Of a stretch of 64,000 bases of DNA, positions 1,208 through 61,540 are shown in pieces. Positions within the stretch are counted from its first letter, which is position 1, and every line of letters begins with the position of its first letter. This stretch comes from Chloranthus sessilifolius (Eukaryota > Streptophyta > Magnoliopsida > Chloranthales > Chloranthaceae). Position numbers and translations under genes: made by a program. Location of the stretch: NCBI GenBank assembly GCA_021018995.1, contig CM037589.1:61826101-61890100 (forward strand). Reading direction: 5' to 3'. A model generated the notes under the pieces. It did no database searches. It had not been told where the DNA came from and worked only from the letters and a program-made list of their open reading frames with translations.

Positions 1208-3725
1208 TTTAGAAGAAAGGTTGACATCATGCCTCATACCGTAGAAAATTACGAACATGAACAAACCCAACTTGGCTCAAAGCGAAGTCATGTAGAAAAT
1301 GATGACATGTCTACTTTTTTGAAAATGATGAACTTGAGCAAGGGAGTCCTAGCTCAAAGCGGACTCATATAGAAAATGATGATACATATACTGCCTTAAA
1401 AATGATGAGCATGAACAAGTCCAATCTAGCTCAAAGCGAAGTCATGTAGAGGTTGATTTAGCAAATCTTTCTGCAAATCCCGGATTACGTATTCCAATTT
1501 CAATGTACCATCCTAATGTTCAAGAATTAGTTCGAAGAGCATATTTGCAAAAAGGTCCATGTCATCCTCATAATCACACATGTTTTCAGAGAAAAATATC
1601 AGGAAAATCACGACGATTTCAACCCAAGTGGTTTAAGATGTATGGAAGTTGGTTAGAATATAGCATATCAAAGGAAAAAGCATTTTGCTTATGTTGCTAT
1701 ATTTTTCGACCAGTTACAACAACATGGGTGCAAGGGGGTACTGAATGTTCTACGATTGAAGGGTTTGACAATTGGAAGAAGCCCAATAAATTTGTGACTC
1801 ATATTGCAGCGCCCAACAGTGCTCACAACCTAGCTCATCAGAAGTGTCAAAATTTGTTGAATCAAAATCAACACATTGAGACACTTTTTTCTAAGCAAGA
1901 TGATAAAGACACAAGGGAATATAGAATCCATTTGACGGCATCAGTAGAATGCGTTCGATATCTTCTTCGTCAAGGATTACCTTTTCGTGGGCATAATGAA
2001 TCAGATGTTTCAAGCAATCAAGGAAACTTTCGTATACTCCTACAATTTCTAGCTGATCATAATGAAAAAATTAGAATTGTCGCATTAAATAATGCTCATG
2101 GCCATCTCAAAATGATTGCATCTCATATCCAAAAAGATATTGTAAGTGCAATTGCGAGTGAAGTCACAAAAACTATCATTGAGGACCTTGGAGATGCCGT
2201 ATTTGCTATTTTGATTGACGAATCTCGTGATATATCTATTAAAGAGCAAATGACTGTTGTTTTACGTTATATAAATAAGAGGGGATGTGTAATTGAGTGA
2301 TTCTTTGGAATAGTACATATTATGGAAACCATCGATGTAGCACTGAAGGATGCGATTAATGCATTATTTGCCAAACATTGATTGAGTATAAAGAAATTGT
2401 GCGGGCAAGGTTATGACGGTGCCAGTAATATGAAAGGTCAGTATAATGAACTTAAGACGCTCATAATGAAAGAGAATGAATATGCCTATTATATTCATTG
2501 TTTTGCTCATCAACTTCAATTGGCACTTGTTGGAGTTGCAAAATGTAACATTGAAATTGGGACACTCTTTAGTGTGGTTTCTGCTGTGGTTAATATTATT
2601 AGAGCATCTACCAAATGTCATGATATTCTTCGAGATAATTGAACTGCTACAGTCATTAATGCAATTGAGAGTGGGGACCTTTCAACTGAGTAGGGATTGA
2701 ATCAGGAGACTACGTTAATACCGGCCGGTGATACGCATTGGGGCTCACACTATAAGTCATTGATAAGCATCAGAGTCCTGTTCTCTTCTGTGATTGTTGT
2801 ACTTGGAATTGTCCGAGAAGATAGTTCAAATTATGATCAAAGAGCTGCAGCAAGGGGCCTAATAATCTCAATGTGCTCTTTTGAGTTTGTATTCACCTTT
2901 CATATAATGGAAAAAATATTGGGAATCACAAATGATCTATCAAAGGCATTACAATAGCAAGAACAAGATATTGTGAATGCCATAGATCTGGTTAAAGTTG
3001 CAAAGGTGAGATTGCAACTTATGAGAGACGTCGGATGGGATTCTGTCATCAAAGAAGTATCTTTATTTTGCAACAAACATAAAATCAGTGTCCCTAACAT
3101 GAATGATAAGTATGAAGAACCAGGGCGATCTCGACGCAGAGCTGAAGAAATAGCACATCTACATCATTATCGTGTTGAATTATTTTATGTTGTTATTGAT
3201 CAACAACTACAAGAGCTTAACAACCGTTTCGATGAAGTGAATACCGAATTACTTCTTTGTATGGCATGCCTAGATCCAAGCAATTCATTCTCAGCTTTTG
3301 ACAAGGAAAAATTAGTTCGGCTTGTTGAATTTTATCTGGTTGAATTTTCTGCAATGTCTCTCGTGATTCTTGATAATCAACTTGCGACTTACATTTTTGA
3401 TGTATGCTCTAAAAGTAAGTTCTCGAAGGTGGATGGGATTAGTGGGCTTGCTCAAAAAATGGTTGAGAAGAAAAAATATGTTTTATATCCACAAGTTTAC
3501 TTGCTCATAAAATTGGCATTAACCCTACCTGTCGCTACTACTACTGTTGAGAGGGCATTTTTTGCTATGCATATTATAAAGAATAGACTTCGAAACCGAA
3601 TGACAGATGAGTGGATGAATGATTGTTTGATCACATACATTGAGAGAGACATTTTTGATAGTATCGAAAATGAGAAAATTCTCCAACGCTTTCAGAAGAT
3701 GAAACCCCGTCGAGGAAAATTGTAA
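1208..3725 (+). pseudogene. decayed hAT-type transposase (TTF zinc finger / DUF4371, ZMYM1-like)
   Basis: This is a domesticated-looking or decayed transposase of the plant hAT superfamily, TTF-type/DUF4371 class. From 1503 to 3725 one frame runs through the whole protein: an N-terminal motif MYHPNVQELVRRAYLQKGPC typical of the class, a TTF-type zinc finger (WLEYSISKEKAFCLCCYIF), the DUF4371 core ending in an ILIDESRDIS motif, LCGQGYDGASNMKG, and a C-terminal hAT dimerisation block (LTLPVATTTVERAF ... ITYIERDIF). The frame is never shifted but carries in-frame stops at 2298 (TGA), 2379 (TGA), 2640 (TGA), 2691 (TAG) and 2955 (TAG). The 5' part, 1208-1500, is in another frame and contains three imperfect copies of a word beginning GCTCAAAGCGAAGTCATG at about 1276, 1351 and 1431. 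The protein would normally bind transposon ends and cut and paste DNA; here it should be inactive unless stops are bypassed. Confidence 0.85.
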
Positions 3726-6930: not shown

Positions 6931-7477
6931 ATGTCACTTCTTTGAGCATCTTCCCTATTTTTCTCCACATTCTGAGTTTGTATTTGTCCCTACTCCTCCT
7001 ATGCATTTATGTTTTCTATTGTCTCTTCTTCACCAGCTACTCATAATCATAGTGTCACTTCTCCCAAGCCTGTTCAGGCTTCTTTTGCAGCAATATAAGT
7101 CGTTACGCTTTTACAAACAAAGACATCAGCATGAGTAATCGATCATGCCACTGCCTCAGTCCTCTGCACAGGTAGATACAATGGACAGTTCTATCCCCTT
7201 ACATCCCTCTAAGGATGCTCCTCCTAGTACCCCTGTTATTCCACCATCTTCTAAGTCTGATCTCGATTTGCTTATGCTCTTTGAAAGGAGTTCGTTCATG
7301 TGTTACTCTCTATCCTCTTGTGAAGTATGTCCGTTATCAGGTTGTTTCTGCATCATACGGAGCTTTTCTTTTGGTTGTTGATAGTGTTACTACCTGGTAC
7401 TGTTCATGCAGCCCTTTTCATCCTTTTTGAAAAGTTGTTATGATTAAGGAGATAAATGCCCTTTAGAGTAATCATAC

Positions 7478-8026
7478 TTGGGACATGGTTCCACTACCTT
7501 CAAGAAGATCGTGAAATGTAAGTGGGTCTTTGGAGTGAAGCATAATCCCGATGGCAGTGTAGAGCAATATAAGGCACGTTTGGTTGTTCGAGGATTCACT
7601 CAGACTTATGGTATTGATTATGATGCTACATTTGCTCCAATGGCTAAGGGCCAATCAGAATTGGCCCTCCATCACATAGATGAAAAAAACGCTTTTCTTA
7701 CTAGGCAAATCAGAGATGAGATTTACATAGATCCTTCACCTAGCTTCCTGCTTCAGAGGGAGACATGGAAAGCATATCAACTTCGAAAGTCAATATATGG
7801 TTCGAAAAAGTCACCCAGGGCATGGTTTCATCACTTTAGTGGGAACGTTATTGATTTGGGATTTCAGATATGTCATTTTGATCACACTCTCTTCATTCAC
7901 TTGCGCCCTATTGGTCGTACGATTCTTCTTGTCTATGTCAATGATATTATTCGCATAGGAGATGACTCTTCTTATATCTCCCATGTGAAATGGAGCTCGA
8001 TCGTATTTTCGAAGTGGAAAATCTGA
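7478..8026 (+). pseudogene. Copia reverse transcriptase remnant
   Basis: The frame holds CKWVFGVKHNPDGSVEQYKA, LVVRGFTQTYGIDYDATFAP, KSIYGSKKSPRAWFHHF and a damaged active-site motif YVNDI in place of YVDDI. The replacement of the catalytic aspartate by asparagine, and a missing segment after TFAPMAK, mean it cannot be active. It would normally copy element RNA into DNA in virus-like particles. Confidence 0.9.
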
Positions 8027-10605: not shown

Positions 10606-10681
10606 TATTATGGCTAAGGAGAGGGTGAGATTATAGTTTTAGAGGGTGTAAGCAATGGGTACCCTTTCATATAAGACTGAC

Positions 10682-11111
10682 CTTTGTCCAAGCAAAACCC
10701 CATCAATCCCACCAAATTGGGGTGGGAAATTCTGAGCAAAATGGAAATCTCCTCCAAAAACGTCTTCCTGCTCCCTCTATCTTGGTGGATGACCCTCTTT
10801 ACAGCCCCAAATTTGCCATTGCCAAGCTCTGCAAAATACACAAAAGAAGTGGCCCCCGCACCAATTATAACGCTGAAATCCTTGGTCGCAGTCCTCAACT
10901 CTTGAAGCCCATATGTTCTTATAACACTGCCACTGCCACTGCCACCACCACCACCATTTTCTTCTCTATAACTTTCTTCCTTATTCCTACTACCAATCCT
11001 TTGATGAAATACCCGCTTCTTGATGACAATGATTAGAACAATTACGACTGTAATCGCTCCGATAATCCATAAATTCCTTGGTTTTGCGAAAGTAGATCCT
11101 TCAAATCCCAT
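10682..11111 (-). CDS. receptor-like protein kinase, first exon (transmembrane segment plus kinase N-lobe)
   Basis: From ATG at 11111-11109 the exon encodes a short N terminus, a single membrane span at about residues 14-30 (LWIIGAITVVIVLIIVI) followed by basic residues, a Gly/Ser linker, and the start of a kinase domain: the Gly-rich loop IGAGATSFVYFAEL, AVKR with the ATP-binding lysine, the helix-C glutamate region KTFLEEISILLRISHPNLVG and LMGFCLDKG. There is no large extracellular domain. The exon ends in phase 1 at AAAG|GTCAGT (10682/10681). The catalytic HRD and DFG segments would be on later exons; none is recognisable to the left, where the BolA-like exon begins 406 bp away on the same strand. 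So this may be a truncated gene, or a gene whose intron contains the BolA start. I do not recognise the exact orthologue. Confidence 0.65.
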
Positions 11112-11119
11112 ATGTTTAA

Positions 11120-12241
11120 CTGTTAGGCTCTTTTCCTTGCTTGTGTTTTCTTCTTTCCTATTCTTCTAATCTCGATCGTTATTATATAATATAATATAAT
11201 ATATGAGTCCAACTCCAAACTAAAGAAGCAAAGCATGCGTCCAGAAATGGTATATGCTGATGCTGCATTTGGGAAAACAAAGGAAATATAATTTTATTAA
11301 TTATGTGAGGTCGATCCCTGCATTTGGACGTTTGCAAGACTAGGAATGAAATGGTATTCTCCGCAAGCCTATATTTATGCTCCTCTGTTATCCTTTTCCT
11401 TGGTCTTTCTCTATGGATACGCTAAATATATAAAATATGGTTATTACCCGTAACCCTACGAAGTAAATAATAAATACATTACAATACCAAAAGTTACTTT
11501 CCATATGAAATTGACACTGATATATGGCAAACAGCAGACCAGTCAACAGACCGCTTATGTGGTGGCACGATGTAAGAACAATGCAGTCGGGCCACCCACT
11601 CTGCATCGTGTCACATAAGCAGTTCAGTCTTGGTCTTTTGTTTGAGGTCCACTCATTATAATTTTTCCTTTTTATATGTCGTGCATATTCCTTACTTTGC
11701 CTAACCTACTATCGCCTGTTACATGTAAAACGTTCATTTCAACGCAACTAATGCAGGTGCTGCTGCGCTGGAGGCGATATTGTATAAACTTCCTTCCAGT
11801 AGGAGGTCATCTATTCTAATCTACTGGATAATTAAGTTGTTAATGGTCTACTACATAGATACAAACACTTCAAGAATGCCAAAAATATACACCATTGCAA
11901 CATTATATATCTAATGACCATATGTAACAAAACCATTGCAAGAATTTCACAAAGAGATGCTTGTAATATCCACATGGACAAAAAAAAGTCCTAAGGTCCG
12001 GTAATGACACACATCTAACAAGACCACTTCAGTGGACTCGTGGATAACATAGGGTAAAACCCCACCTACACGCATGAGCTAATATTTTTTTTGCTTTTCC
12101 AACTTTGATAATATTTTTAATGGTAGATATAAGCCTTGGATTTTACCTAAATTTTTTAAGTAAGACCGGATCAATCTAATCCAAGTTGCTATGACATGCA
12201 GCTCAACTAGCCCGTGGGTAGTGCCAAAATGCTACCCCCAT

Positions 12242-48148: not shown

Positions 48149-51100
48149 GCTTTTGGCTCTTTTCGCATCTGCTTTCTTCCTGCCCTTCAACTTAAAGACA
48201 GGATTAGTGGAACCAGTTGCCTAAAGCTCTAGTTGGTATATTATAACATATTACATGGTAAGTTGGAATGGATCGATAAAATGGAAGCAACTTTGTCATT
48301 TAAGAATGCATCCTTGTGTTTCACCATCATTTTCCATATCATTTTCTTTTAATTCATAAATTATTTGATCCAGCCACAATTTCTTCTCCCGACTCAATAA
48401 AGTAACAGGAAGCCATTCTATAAATGCAGGTAAATATTATGTTAAAAGAACTACCAGAAGAGGAATTTGGCCCTGGGATTGCCTTCAGAGAATACTCCTT
48501 CCTTGACAATCCACTTCTGCCTAAACAGGTACAATCAAATTCCATTATATGAATATCTAAAGGAGTCCGTATTTTATGTATATCTTTCATTGGTGTTAAA
48601 CGTTTTTCTCGTGATGTCTCCAGGTAAAGGAGTCATGGCTTGATGTACAACTTTGTGAAGAGCAATCGCCAAATTGCTATGTAGCTAATGAAACAAGTCA
48701 CCAAGGAATACTCAGATTTCCTCAGCAAAGCAATGAAGAAACGGTATTCTAATCTCATTAAAATGATGCTCCAAGTGAAGAATTATTATGATTCCACCAG
48801 GAACTTTCTTTGTTTGATTTTTTAGTTGGTGTTGTCTAGGTTTTCGACACTTTTTGTATCAGTAGAGATGTAATTCTATTAGAAAGTCCAAAACAAAAAA
48901 GCTAAATGGGGCACTAAAGAAAAAACCAAAAGAAAAAGAAAAGCGAAGACAAAAAATAAACATCTGAACCAGCAGCCAAGACCACTTGACAGCCATGACT
49001 AACAGGGCTTATAAATCTGCACCCTCCTTATTGGACAACCCTGTGCATTCATTAGACATTCCCACCCATTAAAGCAAGTAGTTCTTCATGGTCCTAGGAT
49101 GATAGAGATTGGGTTGCGCTTTCCTTTAAAATTCATAGGTTCGCTCTCTCCAAATCAACCAAAAAACAGCCATGGGAAGCAACCTAGATAGACCCTTCAA
49201 CCTCTAGTAAAAAGTGTGACAAAAGGGATTCAGCAAGAATGTCGTTGTTGCATAATCTAGGCATGCATCCAACAATGTGAACTCTTCGGTAAAACATCCA
49301 AATCCTAACAGCAGCCAGACAGTAGATGAGTAAGTGTTCAATTGTTTCTTCATTACTATTACCATCACACATCTATTCGCTATGCTCATGCCCCTACTGA
49401 TGAGGTTGTTACCTTTCAGAATCTTGTTCCATGCCACATGCCAAGTTTTAATCCAACACATTGATGGAAGGTATTGATGCCGTTATCCCTTTCCACCAAC
49501 CAGAAGCTTGTTGCAGCGCCCGTAACACTTTATTCCCCATCCCTACCTTGAAACCTTTCTTCTTTTCTGTTGTACAAATCCCTACCCTGTGGTTGCAATG
49601 TTGACGACCTTCCATTGTGCTAGAGGCCCACACCCATACCTTGAAACCTTGTTCGTGTTGTACAATCACATTTTCCCGTAGGGCATTAGGATTGTCCCCA
49701 ACTCTCCACAACCACTTGACCAACATAGCCATGTTCGGATGTTCATATGCCCAATTCGTTTAATACCAAGAACTCCCATCTTTCTTTGAGAAGCATGTCA
49801 TGTCCCAATTGATGAGGTGCATTTTCCACTTACAGCTCCTAAACGCTCCAAGGGAAATGGGACAGATAATACACCGGTAAGTTAGACAACGTGGCCTTAA
49901 TGACGGTGACTCTCCCACCGATTGAGAAAAGATTTCCTTTTGAAATGGACAATATATGGTCCACCCTGTCAGTCATTGATCTCATAGGTACTTAAAAGGT
50001 TTATATAAGAAGAGAGGCAAGCCAAGATACTTGGATGGGAGACTACCCATGCTGCTACCAAAATAAGTAGCAGCATGGGATATTGTTATGACAATTAACC
50101 ATTTAACCTCAAGCTTGTTTCTTTCCTCGATTTCCACCACGGACATATTTCTCTTCTCTTCGATGTGACTGATATAATCAATTTTAGCAGCAATGTAATC
50201 CTGCGCTGTCATAATGACCCCGGAACTTTCTTTATTCCTTTTTTTTAAGAATTCCTTGAGCCACCTTAATTTGGAAGACGGGATGAACTCAGCAAAACCC
50301 GCCACAGTCCAAGATTGCCATTTCTCTCAAAAGATATCACGAAAAAAAAAAAACTCTTGTTGTAGAAACATCTGTTTGAACCTAAAAGGTCTAGGTCCCC
50401 AACCTCATCCAAAGCCGACAAAATTACCAGGATATGTGATCTGATGGCGTATTAATGAGCCTCTAATGACCAGCTTTTGATTGTGTTCCTCCCAATCCGT
50501 GGTCCAGATTTTTTGACACTTTAGAGATGTTTGTTGAGTTAAATTACAACTTAGGTTTCTTTAGTCTTATTGGTTAACTTTTCTATGGATAATCTGGGAT
50601 CAAATCTGCGATCTCCGGTGGAAGGGCATTAGTAGGACTTGGCCTTTTTCTCTCGTTGGGTGCGCTTCCGCTAGGGCGACGGCTCTCGTATTTGTTTCTG
50701 GGACCCCTGGGTGGAGGACAGGCAGCTCAAAGAATTGTTTCCGTCTATTTTCAGCATCGCGACAAATCCCCGTGGAGTTGTGGTTACCTTTTATTCGGAA
50801 CCCGAAGGGGGAACGGCTGGGATTTGGTCATGAGGAGGAAGGCCCTTTTCTGCGCCTGTTGGTGGGGCTGTACGGGGCTAATAGAAATGCCTCTGGAGTT
50901 GATGCCAAGATCTGGGTGCCTAGCAAGAATGGAGAGTTCACCACCAAGTCTTACTTCCGGAGGATTTTGAACTGGCCGCTAATTAGGTATGAATGGGCTA
51001 ACTTGCGGAAGGCTGCTGCCCCTCCCAAAGTAAAATTCTTTACATGGCTTTTGCTCAAAGAGAGGATCCTCACGCGGGACCAGCTGATCCGAAGGGGGAA

Positions 51101-52547
51101 AGAGATTCAGAATGTGTGTGCCATGTGCCTTCAATCGGAAGAATCCGTTGCTCACCTATTTCTTCATTATTCGACGGCTTGCGAAATCTGGGGGATTATT
51201 CTTAAGTCGTTTGATATGATGTGGGCCTGCCCATATTCCATCTCTCAGCAATTTCTATCCTGGTTTGGGGCGGGTCTCAAAGGCCAGCTGGGAGGTGGGC
51301 TTTTTTGCGGTGGTTTGGAGCATCTGGCTCAAGAGAAACAATCACATCTTCGGTCGGAAATGTCTCCTTGTGGGGATGGTCCTAAAGACTGTTTGGGACT
51401 TTATGTACGCTTGGGTGGTGTTGAGTAAGGAGGGGGCCGAGGGGGGACACCGTCATTGGGACCCGGGCTAGGCCTTTAGTCGGGTTGTCTAGCTGCCGGG
51501 CCTGTTTCTTTTTCCCATTCTCCCCCCTCTCCTTTGTTTTCCTTTTTTGTATGTTTTTTTCCTTTTCTTTTCTATCCTTTCTTCTTTTTTGGTCAGTTTG
51601 TCCACCTTTCATTGAATCTGAAGGGTCAATCCCGAGGCGGAAAAACAGATGCAGTCCAAACTGTGCTGAAATATCTGCTCAACTACGTGTCTCTTAAAAC
51701 TGAAGACGTGACTGTTTCTCTTCCCAGATACACCAGAAAACCGCAGCAGATATCAGTTTCCATAAGACTGCTCTGCGCATTGAATGTCTTACCCGCAAGC
51801 CCAATATCCTTACAGTTGAAAGACATACACAACTGGACCAAGTCACTTTCAAAGATTTTGTAAACTAGTGCCAGAGGGCGTTAACTTAGGCACAGGCAGC
51901 CAGAGGACACTGAGGTTATAAATGCTCAAATGAAATATCATTCGTAAAGGGAAATAGATGTCTGGTTAACACCTCTTAGGAAATGCCCTTTTTCTGGAAT
52001 CATTGAACAATTACTCCACGACATTTTGGGAAATTAACAAGAACAAACATTAGTCTGTTTTTGTATACTGTTGGAGTATGAAAGTGATTCCTAAATTGTA
52101 GACACGGGTGTGGTCGCTCCACTCTACACTTCAATTTACTTGCCTCTTATAAGGTGCCGTTGATTTCACTAGGAACCAGCTGACCATAAATTTTCTCACA
52201 GTTCACAAGGGTATTCTCCACATACAAGAATGTGAAGGTCATACAGCTCTCATCCATGGTGAATGCCTTCCAAGGTTTCAACAATAAGGCAAGTTTGTCT
52301 CTTATTCTTTTATATATCTTTCTGAGTAGCTGATCAGAAAATATGTTGGATGATGAAAAGTTTTATGAATTATGAGCAGGCAAGAGAGGAGAAGTTCAGG
52401 AGCCGTGTGAAGCGGTATGTCGGAATTTGGTGCTGTGTGGAGAACCATGAACCTGGGCACATCTATTACGACATGTACTGGGATGAAAAAGCTGACTGGA
52501 AACCAGCTCCACCAGCAACGCGTGAGGATGACCATCCTCCATGGTAG
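17945..52547 (+). CDS. XEG113: XEG113-like arabinosyltransferase (GT77), 13 exons, complete
   Basis: Golgi type II membrane glycosyltransferase that adds arabinose to hydroxyproline-linked chains of extensins (role known from Arabidopsis XEG113). Exons: 17945-18116, 23534-23857, 24001-24206, 27142-27247, 34657-34913, 35084-35219, 38671-38765, 38881-38934, 43048-43161, 48430-48528, 48624-48743, 52202-52288, 52380-52547. They sum to 1938 nt and 645 residues, almost the length I recall for the Arabidopsis protein. Residues 13-38 form the signal anchor. The nucleotide-sugar transferase domain starts near residue 110 (VKDNVIIVTFGNYAF) and holds the DXD motif, DTD at 227-229 (LMCDTDMVWLK). The C terminus has the conserved KRYVGIWCC and GHIYYDMYWDE blocks. 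All exon phases agree and no stop interrupts the frame. The last intron is GC-AG. Introns 1, 3, 4, 6, 8, 9 and 11 exceed 2.9 kb. The ATG at 17945 was chosen because it starts the basic-then-hydrophobic anchor. Confidence 0.93.
19300..21970 (+). mobile_element. decayed Copia element, 5' end missing, 3' LTR present
   Basis: In order: integrase tail (about 19330-19500; PHVFGCLRFA, KAYTCYDPM), reverse transcriptase (about 20340-20840; LATHKRWNLYQFDVKSVFLH, then NVGYRRSHYDHTLFVTR and a damaged IGDDEEEI where YVDD would be), connecting region (20883-21083; YKHIDGLM.., RLVGKLIHLTMKYLDIAYAV) and RNase H (about 21180-21560; GEYRAVSLGAHKG, LYSDDEVALYIAKSPVYHER). A polypurine tract GAGGGGGA (21615-21622) precedes the 3' LTR, beginning TGTTGGTGTGCC at 21624. 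Many stops. No 5' LTR was seen. Confidence 0.85.
21624..21970 (+). repeat. Copia 3' LTR with internal 77-bp duplication
   Basis: Starts TGTTGGTGTGCC directly after the polypurine tract. Contains a 77-bp direct duplication starting at 21796 and 21873 (TCTTCTCTAA.TGTAATTTAC, GTTGACTTCCCCCATGAGTC in both). The right border is approximate. Confidence 0.65.
22001..22030. repeat. T14-G16 homopolymer junction
   Basis: Fourteen T followed by sixteen G. The G run could form a quadruplex and is a typical site of sequencing error. Confidence 0.9.
22900..23440. repeat. diverged direct duplication in XEG113 intron 1
   Basis: Words around 22915-22990 (GAAACCATCCACAATCCACA, TTGTTCAGCTTCATATTT) recur at 23275-23330 (GAAACTGTCCACAGTCCATG, TTGTTCAGTTTCATATTT), and the TTTGCTTCTAGGTATGCC / CTTGCCTCTAGGTTTAC blocks recur as well. 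Confidence 0.6.
23534..23857 (+). CDS. XEG113: XEG113 exon 2 (residues 58-165)
   Basis: Acceptor TTTCAG at 23533; donor GTAAAT at 23858; starts in phase 1 and ends in phase 1. Encodes the Pro/Asn-rich stem and the start of the transferase fold (VKDNVIIVTFGNYAFLDFIL, NWVKHLTDLKVFNLLV). Potential N-glycosylation site NST. Confidence 0.95.
24001..24206 (+). CDS. XEG113: XEG113 exon 3 (residues 166-234), DXD motif
   Basis: Acceptor TTATTAG ending at 24000; donor GTATGT at 24207. Encodes GAMDTKLLYALYWKGVPVFD, VGWGSPTFHKMGREKVILID and LMCDTDMVWLK with the metal/nucleotide-sugar binding DTD. Intron 2 before it is only 143 bp. Confidence 0.97.
24207..27141 (+). other. XEG113 intron 3 (2.9 kb), no element identified
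   Basis: AT-rich intron sequence. I could not assign any transposon or gene within it. Confidence 0.6.
27142..27247 (+). CDS. XEG113: XEG113 exon 4 (residues 235-269)
   Basis: Acceptor GGAACAG at 27141; donor GTGAAT at 27248; ends in phase 1. Encodes NPLPYFTRFPGADILTSSDQ and VIPTVADDRLEIWEQ. Confidence 0.96.
28105..28380 (-). mobile_element. RTE LINE 3' fragment (minus)
   Basis: On the minus strand it ends with the RTE tail; on the plus strand this reads CATCATCATCCTCATCACAT and CCCATCTATTTGGGGTCGGC. The coding part encodes the RTE C-terminal basic block. Truncated at both sides. Confidence 0.75.
28862..28960 (+). mobile_element. tRNA-derived SINE
   Basis: Contains a tRNA-like head with an A-box-like TAGGCTGTAGCACAATGG and a B box GGTTCGAGCCC, followed by an A-rich tail (AAATAAATAAAAAATAAA). 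Similar copies lie at 53573 (plus) and 58565 (minus). A real tRNA is unlikely because no cloverleaf acceptor stem pairs up. Confidence 0.6.
29105..29452. mobile_element. palindromic MITE family, complete copy
   Basis: The two arms are inverted copies: left GATGGGCATCTACGCC, AAACCATTGATTAC, CAATCTTCCACACAGGGGAT, CATCAGACAG, GTGGCCCTAAACTCAC; right the complements in reverse order (GTGACTTTAGGCCATTTTAT, CTGTCTGATG, CTTGTGTGGAAGATTG, GCAATGTATGGTTT, GTAGGTGCCCACC). The whole unit is a fold-back of about 340 bp with no coding capacity. Other copies lie at 10.5, 12.6, 16.6, 31.3, 31.85, 32.5, 32.9, 33.3 and 33.7 kb. Confidence 0.8.
29860..30275 (-). pseudogene. Copia RNase H fragment (minus)
   Basis: Read on the minus strand it gives HLDAVYKVLDT, DYADVNWAESLSNRKLTT, GGNLVTWRTKNQ, SSAKAEYRDIS and EGMWM, the connecting and RNase H blocks of Copia. 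Several stops; no LTR adjacent. Inserted in XEG113 intron 4. Confidence 0.8.
30721..30848. repeat. degenerate TATCAGG tandem array, left part
   Basis: Repeats of TATCAGGTATCAG / CAGTCATCAG words, interrupted by the hAT element; the array resumes at 34296-34375. Rejoining the two sides, minus one 8-bp duplication, gives a continuous array. Confidence 0.85.
31305..31580. mobile_element. palindromic MITE family copy
   Basis: CTTCCACACAAAGGATCTTA, CATCCGACAG, TTTTAAGTGGCACAAATC in the left arm and GATGTGTGCCACGTAGAG, TGTGTGAAAAATTAGG in the right. Confidence 0.65.
31817..32225. mobile_element. palindromic MITE family copy, long form
   Basis: Arms extend to GGGGTACCATTGTTTGTGCT on the left and GACATGGGTGCGAACAG on the right, so the family's true termini may carry the GGTACC...TTTGCGCC words. 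Core CAGACGGTCATTTTTTATTC ... GGAATAAAAAATTTACCGTC. Confidence 0.7.
32403..32807. mobile_element. Mutator-like MITE with perfect 9-bp target duplication
   Basis: Terminal inverted repeats of more than 50 bp: GGAGCCATTACTTGCACATA, then TGGCCCTTGCACATAGTTTA, AAAGAAAGA; the right end is the complement. Target duplication TTTTATTTA at 32394-32402 and 32808-32816. The interior includes a piece of the palindromic MITE (about 32498-32595). Its ends resemble those of the element at 15925-17629. Confidence 0.85.
32829..33060. mobile_element. palindromic MITE family copy, left arm
   Basis: GGGTACCTCTATTTGCGCCA, GATGGAGATCATTTTTCACC, CTTCCACAATGGATCTGGAG, ACCATCAGACAG, CAAAAAGTGGCCCTAACATC, then lost at the core. 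Confidence 0.65.
33285..33610. mobile_element. palindromic MITE family copy, diverged
   Basis: Left arm GACTGCTTTGAATCAGGCGA, right arm CATGATCTCAAGGTCCATGG and AAAACAATCTCCATTATTTG. The core is replaced by unrelated sequence. Confidence 0.55.
33700..34060. mobile_element. palindromic MITE family copy, complete
   Basis: Left arm ATTGATTGCTTTGAATCAGA, GATGGAGATCGTTTTTCACC, CCCCAAAAAATGGCCCTAAA; right arm GGGCCATTTTTTGGGGATCT, GATCTCAAGATCTATTGTGT, AAAAACGATCTCCGTCATCT. A near-perfect fold-back. Confidence 0.8.
34296..34375. repeat. TATCAGG tandem array, right part
   Basis: Continuation of the array split by the outer hAT element. Confidence 0.8.
34657..34913 (+). CDS. XEG113: XEG113 exon 5 (residues 270-355)
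   Basis: Acceptor ATCCACAG at 34656; donor GTGGGA at 34914; phases 1 then 0. Encodes VTGAYNIGIFHWRPTDPVKK, QNGFNELMHKQLGPSV, VYAFDGMLKLGILPASIF and CSGHTYFVQ. Confidence 0.97.
35084..35219 (+). CDS. XEG113: XEG113 exon 6 (residues 356-400)
   Basis: Acceptor GTTGACAG at 35083; donor GTAATC at 35220; ends in phase 1. Encodes AMYQQLRLEPYAVHTTFQYA and GTEGKRHRLREAMAFYDQPE. Intron 5 before it is 170 bp. Confidence 0.97.
36660..37575 (+). mobile_element. RTE LINE fragment (reverse transcriptase and C-terminal tail)
   Basis: Encodes the RTE active-site region as SPWCMSFVDDVGVIAQ (FVDD box), then further on KATVRSVLLYGAKCWATKNG and WFEHVNWR-like blocks, and ends in the typical RTE tail (CGACCCAAGATGATGATGAT). 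Many stops and an internal deletion. Confidence 0.85.
37620..37905. repeat. degenerate minisatellite, unit about 60 bp
   Basis: Repeats of the words GGTCATTTCA, AAAATGGTAATTTT and TTGATTCAAGAA occur about four times with many changes. Confidence 0.6.
37940..38290. repeat. degenerate minisatellite, unit about 65-70 bp
   Basis: Repeated words CCTTGGAGATGGCCAAGG, GGCACA.TCAAGGAGGTGATG and CACTTGACCCTTGG recur about five times between 37940 and 38290. Confidence 0.7.
38440..38578 (+). mobile_element. RTE LINE 3' tail
   Basis: GGCTTGGAGGGAAACAGTGA, AAATCGACCCCAAATAGATG and GGGACAAAGCGGTGATGAT are the last bases of the RTE family. The upstream part is a GATAAAGATA-rich low-complexity stretch. Confidence 0.7.
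38671..38765 (+). CDS. XEG113: XEG113 exon 7 (residues 401-432)
   Basis: Acceptor TTTACAG at 38670; donor GTAAGT at 38766. Encodes GGFLSFKPSIPKSLLLDGEH and TVETHFSLINYQ. Confidence 0.97.
38881..38934 (+). CDS. XEG113: XEG113 exon 8 (residues 433-450)
   Basis: A micro-sized 54-nt exon between TTCTCCAG and GTGAGT. Encodes LKQIRVALAIALLLNRTL, which fits the conserved helix after the substrate domain; NRT is a potential glycosylation site. Confidence 0.95.
39700..39960. repeat. AAAT run and degenerate TTTAGG/GGGTTTAG repeats
   Basis: An (AAAT)n run at about 39708-39732, then repeated ATTTAGAAATTAGGGTTTAG-like words. They resemble plant telomere units (TTTAGGG) but are too irregular to be a telomeric array. 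Confidence 0.6.
40170..40330. repeat. perfect 37-bp inverted repeat with 22-bp direct repeat
   Basis: Left arm 40170-40206 begins GCTGAAGATTCGGTTAATCA; right arm 40294-40330 is its exact complement and ends TGATTAACCGAATCTTCAGC. The loop is 87 bp. AAGGCAGTCTTTTGAAAATG CC occurs inside the loop (about 40262) and again after the right arm (about 40356). The transcript of this intron would form a long hairpin. Confidence 0.9.
40787..41790. mobile_element. ATCGG-family element, interrupted by a hAT MITE
   Basis: Left end GCAAGGTCTCAAACTGG with TTTCGGTATCGAGTATTGGT; right end GGTATCGATTTCC ... ACGTATCGGTATCCGCTGAT and CTTCGCACCATGC. The flanks TCCTAT (40781-40786) and TCCTAA (41791-41796) fit a 6-bp duplication with one change. 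Same family as 60512-61534. Confidence 0.6.
40953..41703. mobile_element. hAT MITE with triplicated 106-bp unit
   Basis: Inverted ends TAGGGCTGTCAATGGGCCAG and (read inversely) TGGGACTGCCAATGGGTCAG. Target duplication AGTCCGAT / AGTCTGAT (40945-40952, 41704-41711). Inside, a 106-bp unit starting ACACTCATATTTTAATGATA repeats at 41167, 41273 and 41379. A (TA)n run lies near 41556-41586. Confidence 0.85.
42080..42760 (-). mobile_element. LTR-like fragment, minus orientation
   Basis: Read inversely it contains GAGTGTGATTCTCTCAAAAT, AGAGTGATTCTTCTATACGT and GTTGGTGCGAAGCC, matching 55980-56060 on the plus strand (GTGATTCTCTCAAAACTTGG, GAGCGATTCTTCTTTTCGCG). The profile suits an LTR, perhaps a solo one. 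Borders unknown. Confidence 0.5.
43048..43161 (+). CDS. XEG113: XEG113 exon 9 (residues 451-488)
   Basis: Acceptor TTTTTAG at 43047; donor GTAATG at 43162. Encodes VMPPIWCRLDRLWFQHPGIL and AGTMTRQPFLCPLDHVFE. Confidence 0.97.
43384..44530 (-). mobile_element. Copia fragment (LTR, RNase H, end of reverse transcriptase), minus
   Basis: On the minus strand, 44505-44317 encodes YSVFVKRSMYRWTILQAYID with a YIDD-like box, and 44148-43885 encodes RQRHTSSNLVYRILRYLSHL, VTWKSKKQNVVARSFVEAEY, the Copia RNase H. An LTR-like stretch follows to about 43384. Immediately left, the sequence AAGCTCTGATACC (about 43371-43383) is the complement of a Copia primer-binding site, on the unexpected side of that LTR. 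Confidence 0.75.
45116..45680. repeat. TTAATTAGCCCTAAtc minisatellite
   Basis: About 18 degenerate repeats of a roughly 30-bp unit (GGTTAATTAGCCCTAA..., AGGATTAACTGGCTAATC). Copies are more regular between 45380 and 45600. Confidence 0.85.
45782..45965. mobile_element. fragment of a CATAGTGAC/TTCGG-type element
   Basis: Begins CATAGTGACAAATTTCGGCA and continues with repeated CGAAATTTC and TTTCGGCAAAATTC words, like the left end of the U1-bearing element at 60540. No right end found. Confidence 0.5.
46700..47120 (-). mobile_element. L1 LINE 3' end, minus
   Basis: Minus-strand coding, 47116-46850, gives CAVFAVFWCIWLERNARIF, the segment after the L1 zinc-binding domain. The 3' untranslated part runs to a poly(A) that reads as T at 46709-46725 on the plus strand. 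Confidence 0.85.
47308..47328. repeat. C21 homopolymer
   Basis: Twenty-one C in a row; candidate i-motif/quadruplex and a likely sequencing-length uncertainty. Confidence 0.9.
47733..47784. repeat. (TA)n microsatellite
   Basis: Long TA run; a second CT/TA compound run lies at 48068-48144. Confidence 0.95.
48430..48528 (+). CDS. XEG113: XEG113 exon 10 (residues 489-521)
   Basis: Acceptor AATGCAG at 48429; donor GTACAA at 48529. Encodes VNIMLKELPEEEFGPGIAFR and EYSFLDNPLLPKQ. Confidence 0.97.
48624..48743 (+). CDS. XEG113: XEG113 exon 11 (residues 522-561)
   Basis: Acceptor TCTCCAG at 48623; donor GTATTC at 48744. Encodes VKESWLDVQLCEEQSPNCYV and a variable segment with a potential glycosylation site NET. 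Intron 10 before it is 95 bp. Confidence 0.95.
48835..50460 (-). mobile_element. decayed L1 LINE 3' half, minus
   Basis: Minus-strand frames give, in order, LGPRPFRFKQMF, SKLRWLKEFLKKRNKESSGV, AMLVKWLWRVGDNPNA, AWNKILKGNNLISRGMSI and SNEETIEHLLIYCLAAVRIW, the L1 ORF2 region from behind the endonuclease and reverse transcriptase to the zinc-binding domain; the reverse transcriptase core itself is missing. Frames change repeatedly. Confidence 0.85.
50590..51610 (+). mobile_element. L1 LINE 3' end, plus, with a late frameshift
   Basis: The frame 50772-51300 encodes AKIWVPSKNGEFTTKSYFRR, APPKVKFFTWLLLKERILTR and a zinc-binding domain with CAMCLQSEESVAHLFLHYST. At about 51300 the frame shifts; the other frame continues VGFFAVVWSIWLKRNNHIFG to a stop at 51471. 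The 3' part is T-rich. Degree of decay is lower than in the minus-strand copy. Confidence 0.9.
52202..52288 (+). CDS. XEG113: XEG113 exon 12 (residues 562-590)
   Basis: Acceptor TCTCACAG at 52201. Encodes FTRVFSTYKNVKVIQLSSMV and NAFQGFNNK. It ends at AAG|GCAAGT, a GC donor with otherwise consensus bases. Confidence 0.93.
52289..52379 (+). other. XEG113 intron 12, GC-AG type (91 bp)
   Basis: Starts GCAAGT and ends GAGCAG. Exon phases on both sides are 0 and the protein continues without gap, so the GC donor is the best reading; no usable GT donor keeps the frame at this place. Confidence 0.8.
52380..52547 (+). CDS. XEG113: XEG113 exon 13 (residues 591-645 and stop)
   Basis: Encodes AREEKFRSRVKRYVGIWCCV, GHIYYDMYWDEKADWKPAPP and ends EDDHPPW-TAG. 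The two last bases of the family's C terminus agree with a full-length protein. The words GATGACCATCCTCCATGG around the stop are repeated just downstream at 52553-52570. Confidence 0.97.
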   Translation, partial: AREEKFRSRVKRYVGIWCCVENHEPGHIYYDMYWDEKADWKPAPPATREDDHPPW

Positions 52548-58660: not shown

Positions 58661-60505
58661 CCAAATCAACAAATCTTATAATTTTGTTTCAAGGCATAAA
58701 ATTTGAAGAGATATAATTTTATTTAATCATTCTCTTAAGCAATTCCTTCGGGAAACAAATATTAGAACAAAAACACCAGCACACTTTTTGCCCTTTCTAA
58801 ATGGAGAATGGCTTTTATGGTTTTATTACCTTCAAAGGTCGGCTTTATTTTAGGTCACTGACTTAAGCCCCTTGTAGGGCTTAGATGACCAGGCAGTCTC
58901 TTGGGCTAGAAACAATTAGCTTTATGAAGTGCAGTCACAATAAACTGTGGCATGCCTATTTGTAGCACCTTTGGTGTTTTTTAATGAAATGGCATCTCCT
59001 ATCTGCACTAGGGAAATTTCGTGGAACAACTTTTTCTCTCGGGGAATATTGGGTAAAAGCTCCAATAGTGCAATGGTGGGAATTTTTTTTGGAGTTTCAT
59101 ATAATATCTTTTTTATGTAACATTGCAATTGCAATTTAGACTTTTAGATAACTCCTGGTAGTCTATTGCTCTTCTAGCAGTGTTTATTTATTTATTTTTG
59201 ATTAAATTAGTGCTGCAATTTCAATAATGAAAACAAAATTTAAGAAGGTCAAAGAGGTGCAGCAAGAAGCTTGTAGTGGTGGTCTTTGTTTAGCATGCTT
59301 ATTTGAGAAGGTGAACTTTTTGGAAGTGCTCGTGTATAATTGCAATACACCTTAACATGCAATATGATGCAACTTCAATGAAAATGATGGAATGGTCTAT
59401 TTGATCTTCTGAACTAGGGAAATGTTGTTGAACAATTTCTTAGTTAAGGGTTGATTTTTAATGGTTCCAGTTTTCTCCGAGTTTATTTGTTCCTCCCAAT
59501 CTCTTCTTTCTGCAATTCCCAATTTGTGTAACTTATTCATGTGAATAAGAAAGAACAAGCAAGACTTTTGCTCGTTATGATTTACCAATGATTTGTTTTT
59601 AGTCTCTCCAAAGGTAAATTGTCGATAAAATGGTGGACATAAGGAGTGTGATTTGTTTAAAAGATGCGTGGAGGAAGGTGGATGCATTCGTCTTTTTTGG
59701 GTTCGTTATGGGTTATAATTTGGGTTGGACATCCAATAAATCTTAGAATCTAGACAATCAATCGCGAAAAAGTTAGATTAGCTGGAAAGTTCACACCTAG
59801 TGCATAACGGCCATATCCTTATGAGTTTTCTTTCGAGGATTCAATTAATTGTCATTTGTAGTTAATTAAACTAACTAAGATGCCTTCCTAACAAGCATGT
59901 GATTTGTGTGTGTGTGTGTTTTCAAATTTCATTGCTGATAAAATAAATACTCAGCATTTAGACCATGTTTGGAAGAGAGGAGGGATAGCTCGAAACACGT
60001 CAACTAAGCATTTCATGTTAGCAAATGGAGTGTATGTCGGATGGCACCTACCTGGTTGCAACCTGGTAATGCTCGAGATTCACATTATTCTTTGCTTGAT
60101 TATCCTTCTAGTTCTAGAGCTATAGTGCGGCACACGCCATAAAATAATAACTATGTACATAAAGTAATATCATATACATGTATATTTGAATGTGTGTGCG
60201 TATCTTCATCATCCTTCTCCCATCTATGAATGTTTATGTGCGTGCAATAAATTAATAGGGCAGTGTTTAGGTCCCCAATTAGTTGAACCCTATTTTAGGT
60301 ACGCAGATTTAAGTGGTTTTAAAACCCTTGGGTACATGATTTTTTGGTGTGGATCTTATTGTAAAACTGTTGGATAATGTTAATATTTGTAAGCCTTTTA
60401 TATTGTGTCCCTAAATTCAATCATATCCATCAAGTCCCAAGTATATATACCATCACGAAAGTTAAAGACTTATGTAGTCCTGTCCACTTTAAAATCCCTT
60501 GTATC
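58661..60505. other. intergenic; nothing recognised
   Basis: AT-rich DNA without supportable genes. Confidence 0.4.
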
Positions 60506-60638
60506 TAAGGAGCAAGGTGTCAACTCAGGTACCGGTATCCATAGTCACAAAATCGGGGTTTGATAATAATTCGGAAAAGTTAAAATCCGGTAAAGTTCGG
60601 GAACAATTCGGGGAAAAAAAATATATTATAAAAATATA

Positions 60639-60690
<52 letters not shown>

Positions 60691-60965
60691 TTATGATTTA
60701 GATATATATTTAAATTTTTTTAATATACTCTTTTGAGTAAAATAATAAATTACTAAATATTTGAATATAAATACATGATTATTAATCAAGACTCTAGGAT
60801 ACATGAAGTTTCATATATGCGAGTTTAACAATTGATCTAGACTCTAGGGACTTCATGTGAATAGGACAAAAAGAGAGGGAGGTGTCAGGGAGAGCTGCAT
60901 TAGACTCTAGGGACTTTAGGTGAATAGGACAAAAAGAGAGAGGGAGGTTGCATTAAAAGAAGATA

Positions 60966-61017
60966 GTCCCACATCGGTTTTTGAAGAAAGAGGGAGGAAG
61001 GCCAGTTGGTATAAAAG
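60966..61017 (+). promoter_or_regulatory. plant U-snRNA-type promoter, copy 1 (USE and TATA)
   Basis: USE GTCCCACATCG at 60966-60976 matches the known consensus RTCCCACATCG. TATAAAAG starts at 61010, leaving exactly 33 nt between, the spacing known for RNA polymerase II-type snRNA genes in plants. What follows is the second promoter copy, not an RNA. Confidence 0.8.
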
Positions 61018-61035
61018 CTAATGCAGGAGAAGATA

Positions 61036-61087
61036 GTCCCGCATTGGTTTTTGAAGAAAGAGGGAGGAAGGCCTGCTGGTATAAAAG
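61036..61087 (+). promoter_or_regulatory. plant U-snRNA-type promoter, copy 2
   Basis: A diverged copy 70 bp downstream: GTCCCGCATTG at 61036-61046 (two changes from consensus) and TATAAAAG at 61080-61087, again 33 nt apart. The U1-like sequence starts 29 nt after the TATA start. Confidence 0.75.
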
Positions 61088-61108
61088 AAGCGAAAATAGA
61101 GGTTCAGT

Positions 61109-61140
61109 GTACTCACCTGGACGGTGTCAATCGGCGAACT
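61109..61140 (+). ncRNA. U1 snRNA-like 5' segment (truncated, pseudogene)
   Basis: GTACTCACCTGGACGG followed by TGTCAATCGGCGA resembles the start of plant U1 snRNA (ATACTTACCTGGACGG then GGTCAATGGGTGA), with about five changes in 30 nt. The 5' splice-site pairing region reads ACTCACCT in place of ACTTACCT, which would still pair with GTGAGT donors. The rest of U1 (stem-loops, Sm site) is absent; the sequence runs on into element DNA. Identification rests on recall of the U1 sequence, reinforced by promoter position. Confidence 0.65.
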
Positions 61141-61540
61141 TCACGGTTTTGCCGAATTATTCGCAAACTTCACGAACTTCTGTGATCTCGACGAATTTTT
61201 CAAAAAAAAACGCGAATAGTTTGTGTTTTGTTTGTTTTTTTAATCGTGAATTATTCGCGAATTAGTCAGTAATTCGACGATTTTTGTGACTATGCCGGTA
61301 TCGGGTATCAGTCCAGGGAGGACCAATACGAATTGGCCGATACCGAGTTGACTGGTAAATTTAAAAAAAAAAAAACAAAAACAAAAAAAATGGGAGGTAT
61401 CGGCCGATACCCGATACGTATCGGTCAATACCAATACCAAATACCAAGTTGATAACCGGCATATTGGCGCTGATACGTATAGGTTTACCCAAACACTGAT
61501 ACATATTGGTATCAGCCGATATTTGATACCTTGCTAAGGA

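Follow-up and report, generated by a model that had tools for sequence, protein, structure and literature searches.

Near the right-hand end of the window, the 64-kb stretch of DNA analysed here, lies a 755-bp element with matching ends (60540-61294) that constitutes a complete DNA transposon (Table 1). It is framed by terminal inverted repeats (TIRs) and a target-site duplication (TSD), its left arm contains an AT microsatellite, and both of its arms align to larger, transposase-bearing relatives. The insertion can be recognised from its empty counterparts. A query made of 80 nt of the left flank and 57 nt of the right flank, joined through one TSD copy, was searched in the window's own genome (2.17 Gb, 32 contigs), and 40 of the 1472 candidates were scored. 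Thirty-eight of these places are unbroken across the junction, with 87-94% identity, and the remaining two correspond to the flanks in the window itself, which the element separates. The insertion has therefore taken place in a copy of another repeat, other copies of which are empty. Together with the exact 13-nt TIRs and the identical TSD copies, the empty sites confirm the original prediction of a 755-bp element with inverted ends and a perfect 8-bp duplication. The host site (window positions ~60510-61530) is repetitive in its own right: GATACC-like words abound in it, and it has many copies in the genome, judging by the candidates just mentioned, of which 40 were scored.

Table 1. Features of the element and its insertion site (window coordinates)
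Feature	Position	Strand	Remarks
TSD CCGGTATC, left copy	60532..60539		identical to 61295-61302; perfect 8 bp
Left TIR CATAGTCACAAAA	60540..60552	+	exact inverted copy at 61282-61294; 13 nt
Left hAT arm	60540..60789	+	83% to L092 positions 1-256
Captured L034 DNA (upstream flank, promoter, U1 +1..+26), rearranged by tandem duplication	60795..61134	+	two blastn stretches
40-nt direct repeat in captured flank, first copy	60838..60877	+	95% identical to 60901-60940
40-nt direct repeat in captured flank, second copy	60901..60940	+	95% identical to 60838-60877
Distal USE, intact, GTCCCACATCG	60966..60976	+	motif position
Distal TATA box TATAAAAG	61010..61017	+	33 nt after distal USE
Proximal USE, two changes, GTCCCGCATTG	61036..61046	+	motif position, copy comparison
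Proximal TATA box TATAAAAG	61080..61087	+	33 nt after proximal USE
U1 snRNA 5' end (+1..+26), decayed	61109..61134	+	23/26 to U1; 0/300 shuffles
Candidate consensus-like 5' splice site CAG/GTGAGT	61111..61119	-	complement of U1 5' end
Right hAT arm	61131..61294	+	71% to L092 3536-3680; overlaps U1-head junction
Right TIR	61282..61294	-	exact inverted match of left 13-nt TIR
TSD CCGGTATC, right copy	61295..61302		identical to left copy; empty sites

Between the arms stand two promoter units and the head of a U1 snRNA. The spacing between USE and TATA box decides between Pol II and Pol III use at plant snRNA genes, and the arrangement here is of the Pol II type, with a TATA box 33 nt after a USE in both units. 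The two pairs had been predicted at 60966 and 61036 and both are present; of the two USE boxes, however, only the distal one is intact, the proximal one carrying two changes. The 60-nt promoter unit is tandemly duplicated at a spacing of 70 nt and with 93% identity. The U1-like start of about 30 nt that had been placed at 61109, 29 nt after the second TATA box, was found in that position, but the match is limited to 26 nt (61109-61134). Its distance from the start of the proximal TATA box, 29 nt, compares with 31 nt in the U1 gene identified below as the donor. The captured DNA comprises the promoter and the U1 5' end, as had been proposed, and has to be extended upstream to about 60795.

Chance similarity as the origin of the promoter and the head was considered and excluded. 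The head agrees with U1 at 23 of 26 positions, against 16 of 26 for the best match to the U1 5' end elsewhere in the window, and its local score of 40 is not reached in 300 dinucleotide shuffles of the element (maximum 23), which places the alignment of 61109-61134 to U1 far above chance. Likewise, the pattern TCCCACATCG-N31..35-TATA occurs once in 64 kb and in none of 100 shuffles, and the donor sequence from -85 to +26 scores 133 against the element, a value that none of 300 dinucleotide shuffles reaches (maximum 31). The Rfam U1 model (RF00003) has no match in the window at its gathering score and none within 60400-61500 at E<=10, which is not surprising given that only 26 nt of the 166-position model are present; a low-threshold Rfam scan yielded six matches, all under the gathering scores and all unrelated. 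A complete U1 body is absent from the element, as judged from the lack of an Rfam U1 match and from the end of the donor homology at +26. No 3' box of the form CA(N)3-10AGTNNAA was found in 61109-61294; a relaxed form follows only two of the 12 real U1 loci checked.

The ends of the element define a family of considerable size. Allowing up to three mismatches, a 35-nt pattern recovered at least 531 left ends and a 40-nt pattern 262 right ends, with none in reversed controls. Among 23 elements with both ends found by one pattern, the two TSD copies agree at all eight positions in 11, at seven or more in 18 and at six or more in 22. Pairing of left and right ends revealed larger members that share them, of which two were analysed: L092 (3680 bp, TSD 6/8) and L093 on contig 2 (4313 bp, TSD CTTCCAAA, 8/8). 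Five of the six frame fragments scanned from them contain DUF659 and Dimer_Tnp_hAT domains over the Pfam cut-offs; the frames are broken, and neither of the two holds an intact transposase. Each of these members aligns with the left and the right arm of the window element, and neither contains U1 sequence. By its 8-bp TSD, its short TIRs and the hAT transposase fragments in same-ended members, the family is classified as hAT; its ends are presumably not those of Ac. L093 is apparently interrupted by an unrelated insertion at positions ~1900-2700, and a third pair of family ends lies 9.9 kb apart on contig 9.

Perfect left ends occur at 46 places, eight of which were fetched. The right end was found by one pattern in seven of them (lengths 645-1014), and U1 is absent from all seven of these members with both ends. 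The idea, prompted by varied interiors, that the family has captured several different genes was dropped for L019, L021, L023, L024 and L083, the interiors of which partly match the transposase-bearing members, so that these five resemble deletion derivatives. For the central part of the L081-L087 group, L083 excepted, and for portions of other interiors, the match to the transposase-bearing members is only partial.

The window holds other remnants of mobile DNA as well. A different hAT-type transposase is represented at 1383-3725 on the plus strand (DUF4371 at 1383-2297, Dimer_Tnp_hAT at 2958-3722; 10 of 27 ORFs were scanned), near which no ends of the present family were found at up to two mismatches. 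Retroelement fragments with RVT_2 and zf-RVT domains occur at 7472-8026 and 50565-51428, both on the plus strand, and an open frame at 10614-11165 on the minus strand contains a partial protein kinase domain barely above the Pfam cut-off.

Where does the U1 DNA come from? A search of the genome with the Rfam U1 model, in which 42 of 39388 candidates were scored, gave at least 27 places, 19 of them over the cut-off; the U1 5' end was found in 24 of the 27. One locus, L034 (contig 5, 155395860-155396020, minus strand), is a U1 gene with a complete U1 scoring 137 bits, and it is the best U1 locus for each of the 11 U1-bearing elements compared. The homology between elements and L034 covers -268 to +26, with 304 aligned nucleotides at 87% in the best copy, L013. 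In the window copy it begins at about -201 and falls into two blastn stretches, 60795-61017 at 69.5% and 61019-61134 at 82.8%. From about -87 onwards, the core promoter is common to L034 and other U1 genes, whereas L034 sequence farther upstream has no match in the other 26 U1 loci fetched (E<=1e-5). This far-upstream DNA being unique to L034 among the U1 loci, L034 or its ancestor is identified as the source. We infer that the transfer ran from gene to element, because the U1 of L034 is complete whereas the U1 sequence of the elements ends at +26. The USE-TATA spacing in the six U1 loci measured is 32-34 nt. Six U1 loci over the Rfam cut-off (L033, L035, L036, L037, L039 and L048) are clustered within 0.3 Mb of contig 14 (4.57-4.86 Mb). 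On contig 7, L044 has an intact U1 start without a recognisable USE, and L054 (30081028-30081107, minus strand) is a truncated U1 match (34.5 bits) in which a USE-like box and the 5' end of U1 are retained, a further promoter-bearing U1 fragment.

The promoter and the U1 head move with the element, as had been suspected. A promoter query (window 60950-61140) returned 23 candidates in the genome, all of which were scored, and these are L034 and 22 element loci carrying the segment; both transposon ends are in hand for 13 of the 22. Pattern searches recovered the right junction in 20 of the 22 loci, the exceptions being L075, which is cut short, and L079, which has an indel there, and the left junction in seven (L006, L010, L013, L022, L025, L028 and L078). 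In these seven copies a stray right-arm-like piece of ~20 nt ending in GCCGAAT (found by a pattern in three of the seven and by eye in the other four) adjoins the left arm, with a U1-flank fragment (GAAACAT...) after it. Next comes a jump back to the donor near -268, marked by ACCTAACACATTGGG in most of the seven and shortened in L010, from where the donor stretch continues as far as U1 +26 and there gives way to the right arm. The joins overlap by ~3-5 nt (AAT, ACCTA and TCGG, by eye), and a chimeric left junction with such short overlaps is as expected from template switching in gap repair. The window copy lacks the chimeric left junction and, like L003, L005, L009 and L076, starts differently at the left. 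Three U1-bearing loci on contig 16 (L012, L014 and L018, at 5.44, 5.65 and 5.80 Mb) are each accompanied by a similar repeat of 309 bp at nearly equal distance, for which reason they probably represent one locus multiplied by segmental duplication, leaving ~20 loci. The 309-bp sequence has family-like ends, with the TSD-like GTTGGGAT on both sides in two of the three.

Taken together, the sequence data support the view that a hAT transposon has indeed captured a U1 promoter, and they also support the identification of the donor gene and the subsequent spread. The element is very probably a non-autonomous hAT that arose by internal deletion and had its middle replaced by filler from L034 (about -268 to +26), which it would carry as passenger cargo. 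A transposase-bearing ancestor would have lost its middle, and a single capture of L034 DNA, made during repair of an excision gap through several template switches with join overlaps of ~3-5 nt, would have supplied the new one; afterwards, the product would have been mobilised in trans by the transposase of the family. The sharing of junctions favours one capture followed by transposition, an argument that rests mainly on the right junction, with the left junction kept in only seven of the 22 loci. The original prediction of a captured promoter thus holds for the capture by a non-autonomous transposon, given the donor, the 22 loci and the right junction in 20 of them, and is not supported in its functional half, the head being unconstrained among 19 of the 22 copies and the captured piece stopping at +26, ahead of most of the U1 body.

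This history has to be weighed against others. Dada elements are DNA transposons with U1 genes as their targets (PMC3706591), and the window element could in principle have landed within a local U1 gene or pseudogene, or next to one, without any capture. However, the U1 segment is enclosed by the terminal repeats and is found together with the element at 22 places, the empty sites are without U1, and the window has no other U1 at the Rfam gathering score, its best other 26-nt match being the 16 of 26 given above; we consider local insertion excluded. If the family had captured U1 promoter DNA several times over, this would account for the variable left parts, with the chimeric junction in seven of 22 loci and a different start in the window copy and the four loci that resemble it. 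Such repeated capture is very improbable, since the right junction falls on one and the same U1 position in 20 of 22 loci and the best donor is common to all 11 elements compared, and later deletions and duplications account for the differing left parts. L034 might, conversely, have received its promoter or upstream DNA from the transposon, as the sole carrier of the far-upstream DNA among the 27 U1 loci fetched. Such a reversal is extremely improbable: the U1 of L034 is complete at 137 bits while the elements end at +26, the 3.1 kb retrieved around L034 yielded no end of the family, other U1 genes have the core promoter from about -87 onwards in common with L034, and both transposase-bearing members are without U1-gene DNA.

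The alternative to passenger cargo is that the captured promoter, of the Pol II type, still drives capped, U1-headed short RNAs that extend into the element or its flank, and that the unit has been kept because it helps the element or the host. Constraint was assessed in 19 of the 22 copies, with the contig-16 near-duplicates L062 and L063, the truncated L075 and the donor set aside. The U1 head is the most divergent part, differing from the consensus at 0.130 and showing no conservation relative to composition-matched sites; the TATA-to-start interval differs at 0.111, the spacer at 0.090, the element arm at 0.089 and the USE, unremarkable against composition-matched sites (p ~0.12), at 0.068. 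The TATA box, at 0.014, is the least changed of all parts, with 2 of 148 cells differing, less than composition-matched sites (p ~0.024, one of three tests), a conservation that would fit some promoter use and counts against a pure passenger. Activity would also be in keeping with the eight of the 22 loci in which an exact USE has TATAA 32-33 nt after it and with the duplication of promoter units in several copies. It remains quite improbable given the decay of the head, the two changes in the proximal USE of the window copy, and the mere 22 loci with cargo against the at least 531 left ends of the family. We regard the cargo as most likely a passenger, because the U1 head decays without constraint.

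Passenger status would leave room for residual activity. The snRNA-type promoter may still be firing in some copies, with transcripts exiting through the right end; for the intact distal unit of the window copy, the TATA-to-start spacing of 29-31 nt would put the start inside the second unit, at ~61039-61041. The proposal that the head contains a variant splice-recognition box, ACTCACCT, is not upheld: this is a change present in six of the 22 copies, and the donor has ACTTACCT, so the variant is derived. We rejected a functional variant box on these grounds, three of the six copies (those on contig 16) looking like duplicates of one locus. On the strand complementary to U1 the window copy has a candidate 5' splice site, which in several other copies reads CAG/GTAAGT, and an intron that received the element in antisense orientation would acquire such a site. 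It is possible, if rather unlikely, that the transposon disperses ready-made Pol II-type snRNA promoters able to start short capped transcripts rightward, and that consensus-like 5' splice sites are spread along with them on its antisense strand. If true, each insertion would plant a USE-TATA unit, and new non-snRNA genes could in this way come under the control of snRNA-type promoters.

That hAT elements can capture gene DNA is established, but such events are described as rare (PMC3260210). According to the same source, maize Ds2 and Ds-l4 of the Ac/Ds group share with the present element hAT ends, an 8-bp TSD, the arms of a transposase-bearing element and a middle of filler DNA, sometimes copied from a gene on another chromosome. 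The element described here has, correspondingly, the arms of a transposase-bearing member, a foreign middle and a donor gene elsewhere in the genome; it differs in that the filler is an snRNA promoter with the U1 5' end, and in that one filler has spread to 22 loci. Pack-TYPE transposons, hAT elements among them, are likewise non-autonomous TIR elements that capture host gene DNA, and a maize hAT member is reported as the source of a new splice donor; that work, as far as its accessible text goes, treats coding DNA, and 'snRNA' and 'promoter' do not appear in its main text (PMC8903248). A search of the open-licence PMC literature at listing level found no earlier report of a transposon with a captured snRNA promoter. 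The cargo here is a small-RNA promoter unit, complete with USE, TATA box and start site, whose donor is identified and which is present at 22 loci. Dada elements, also DNA transposons associated with U1 genes, insert into these genes with a TSD of 6-7 bp (PMC3706591); in the present case the U1 sequence is inside the element, the TSD has 8 bp and the host site is an unrelated repeat rather than a small RNA gene.

As for the promoter itself, the USE and the TATA box are the conserved elements of plant snRNA promoters (PMC545797, PMC5079582). The element has both, twice at 33 nt, with the distal USE alone intact. It shares with the U1 genes of its own genome the USE, the TATA box, the 33-nt spacing and the first 26 nt of U1, and differs from them in having no body past +26, a duplicated promoter, and a start 29 rather than 31 nt from the TATA box. 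A further parallel is offered by Cuscuta MIRNA loci (PMC10226582), where an snRNA-type USE likewise lies upstream of non-snRNA sequence in a plant. Those loci are described as expressed and as having Pol III features, whereas the putative promoter units of the element have Pol II-type spacing and are carried by a transposon. With USE promoters preceding non-snRNA genes in Cuscuta (PMC10226582), a transposon that carries one is a candidate vehicle.
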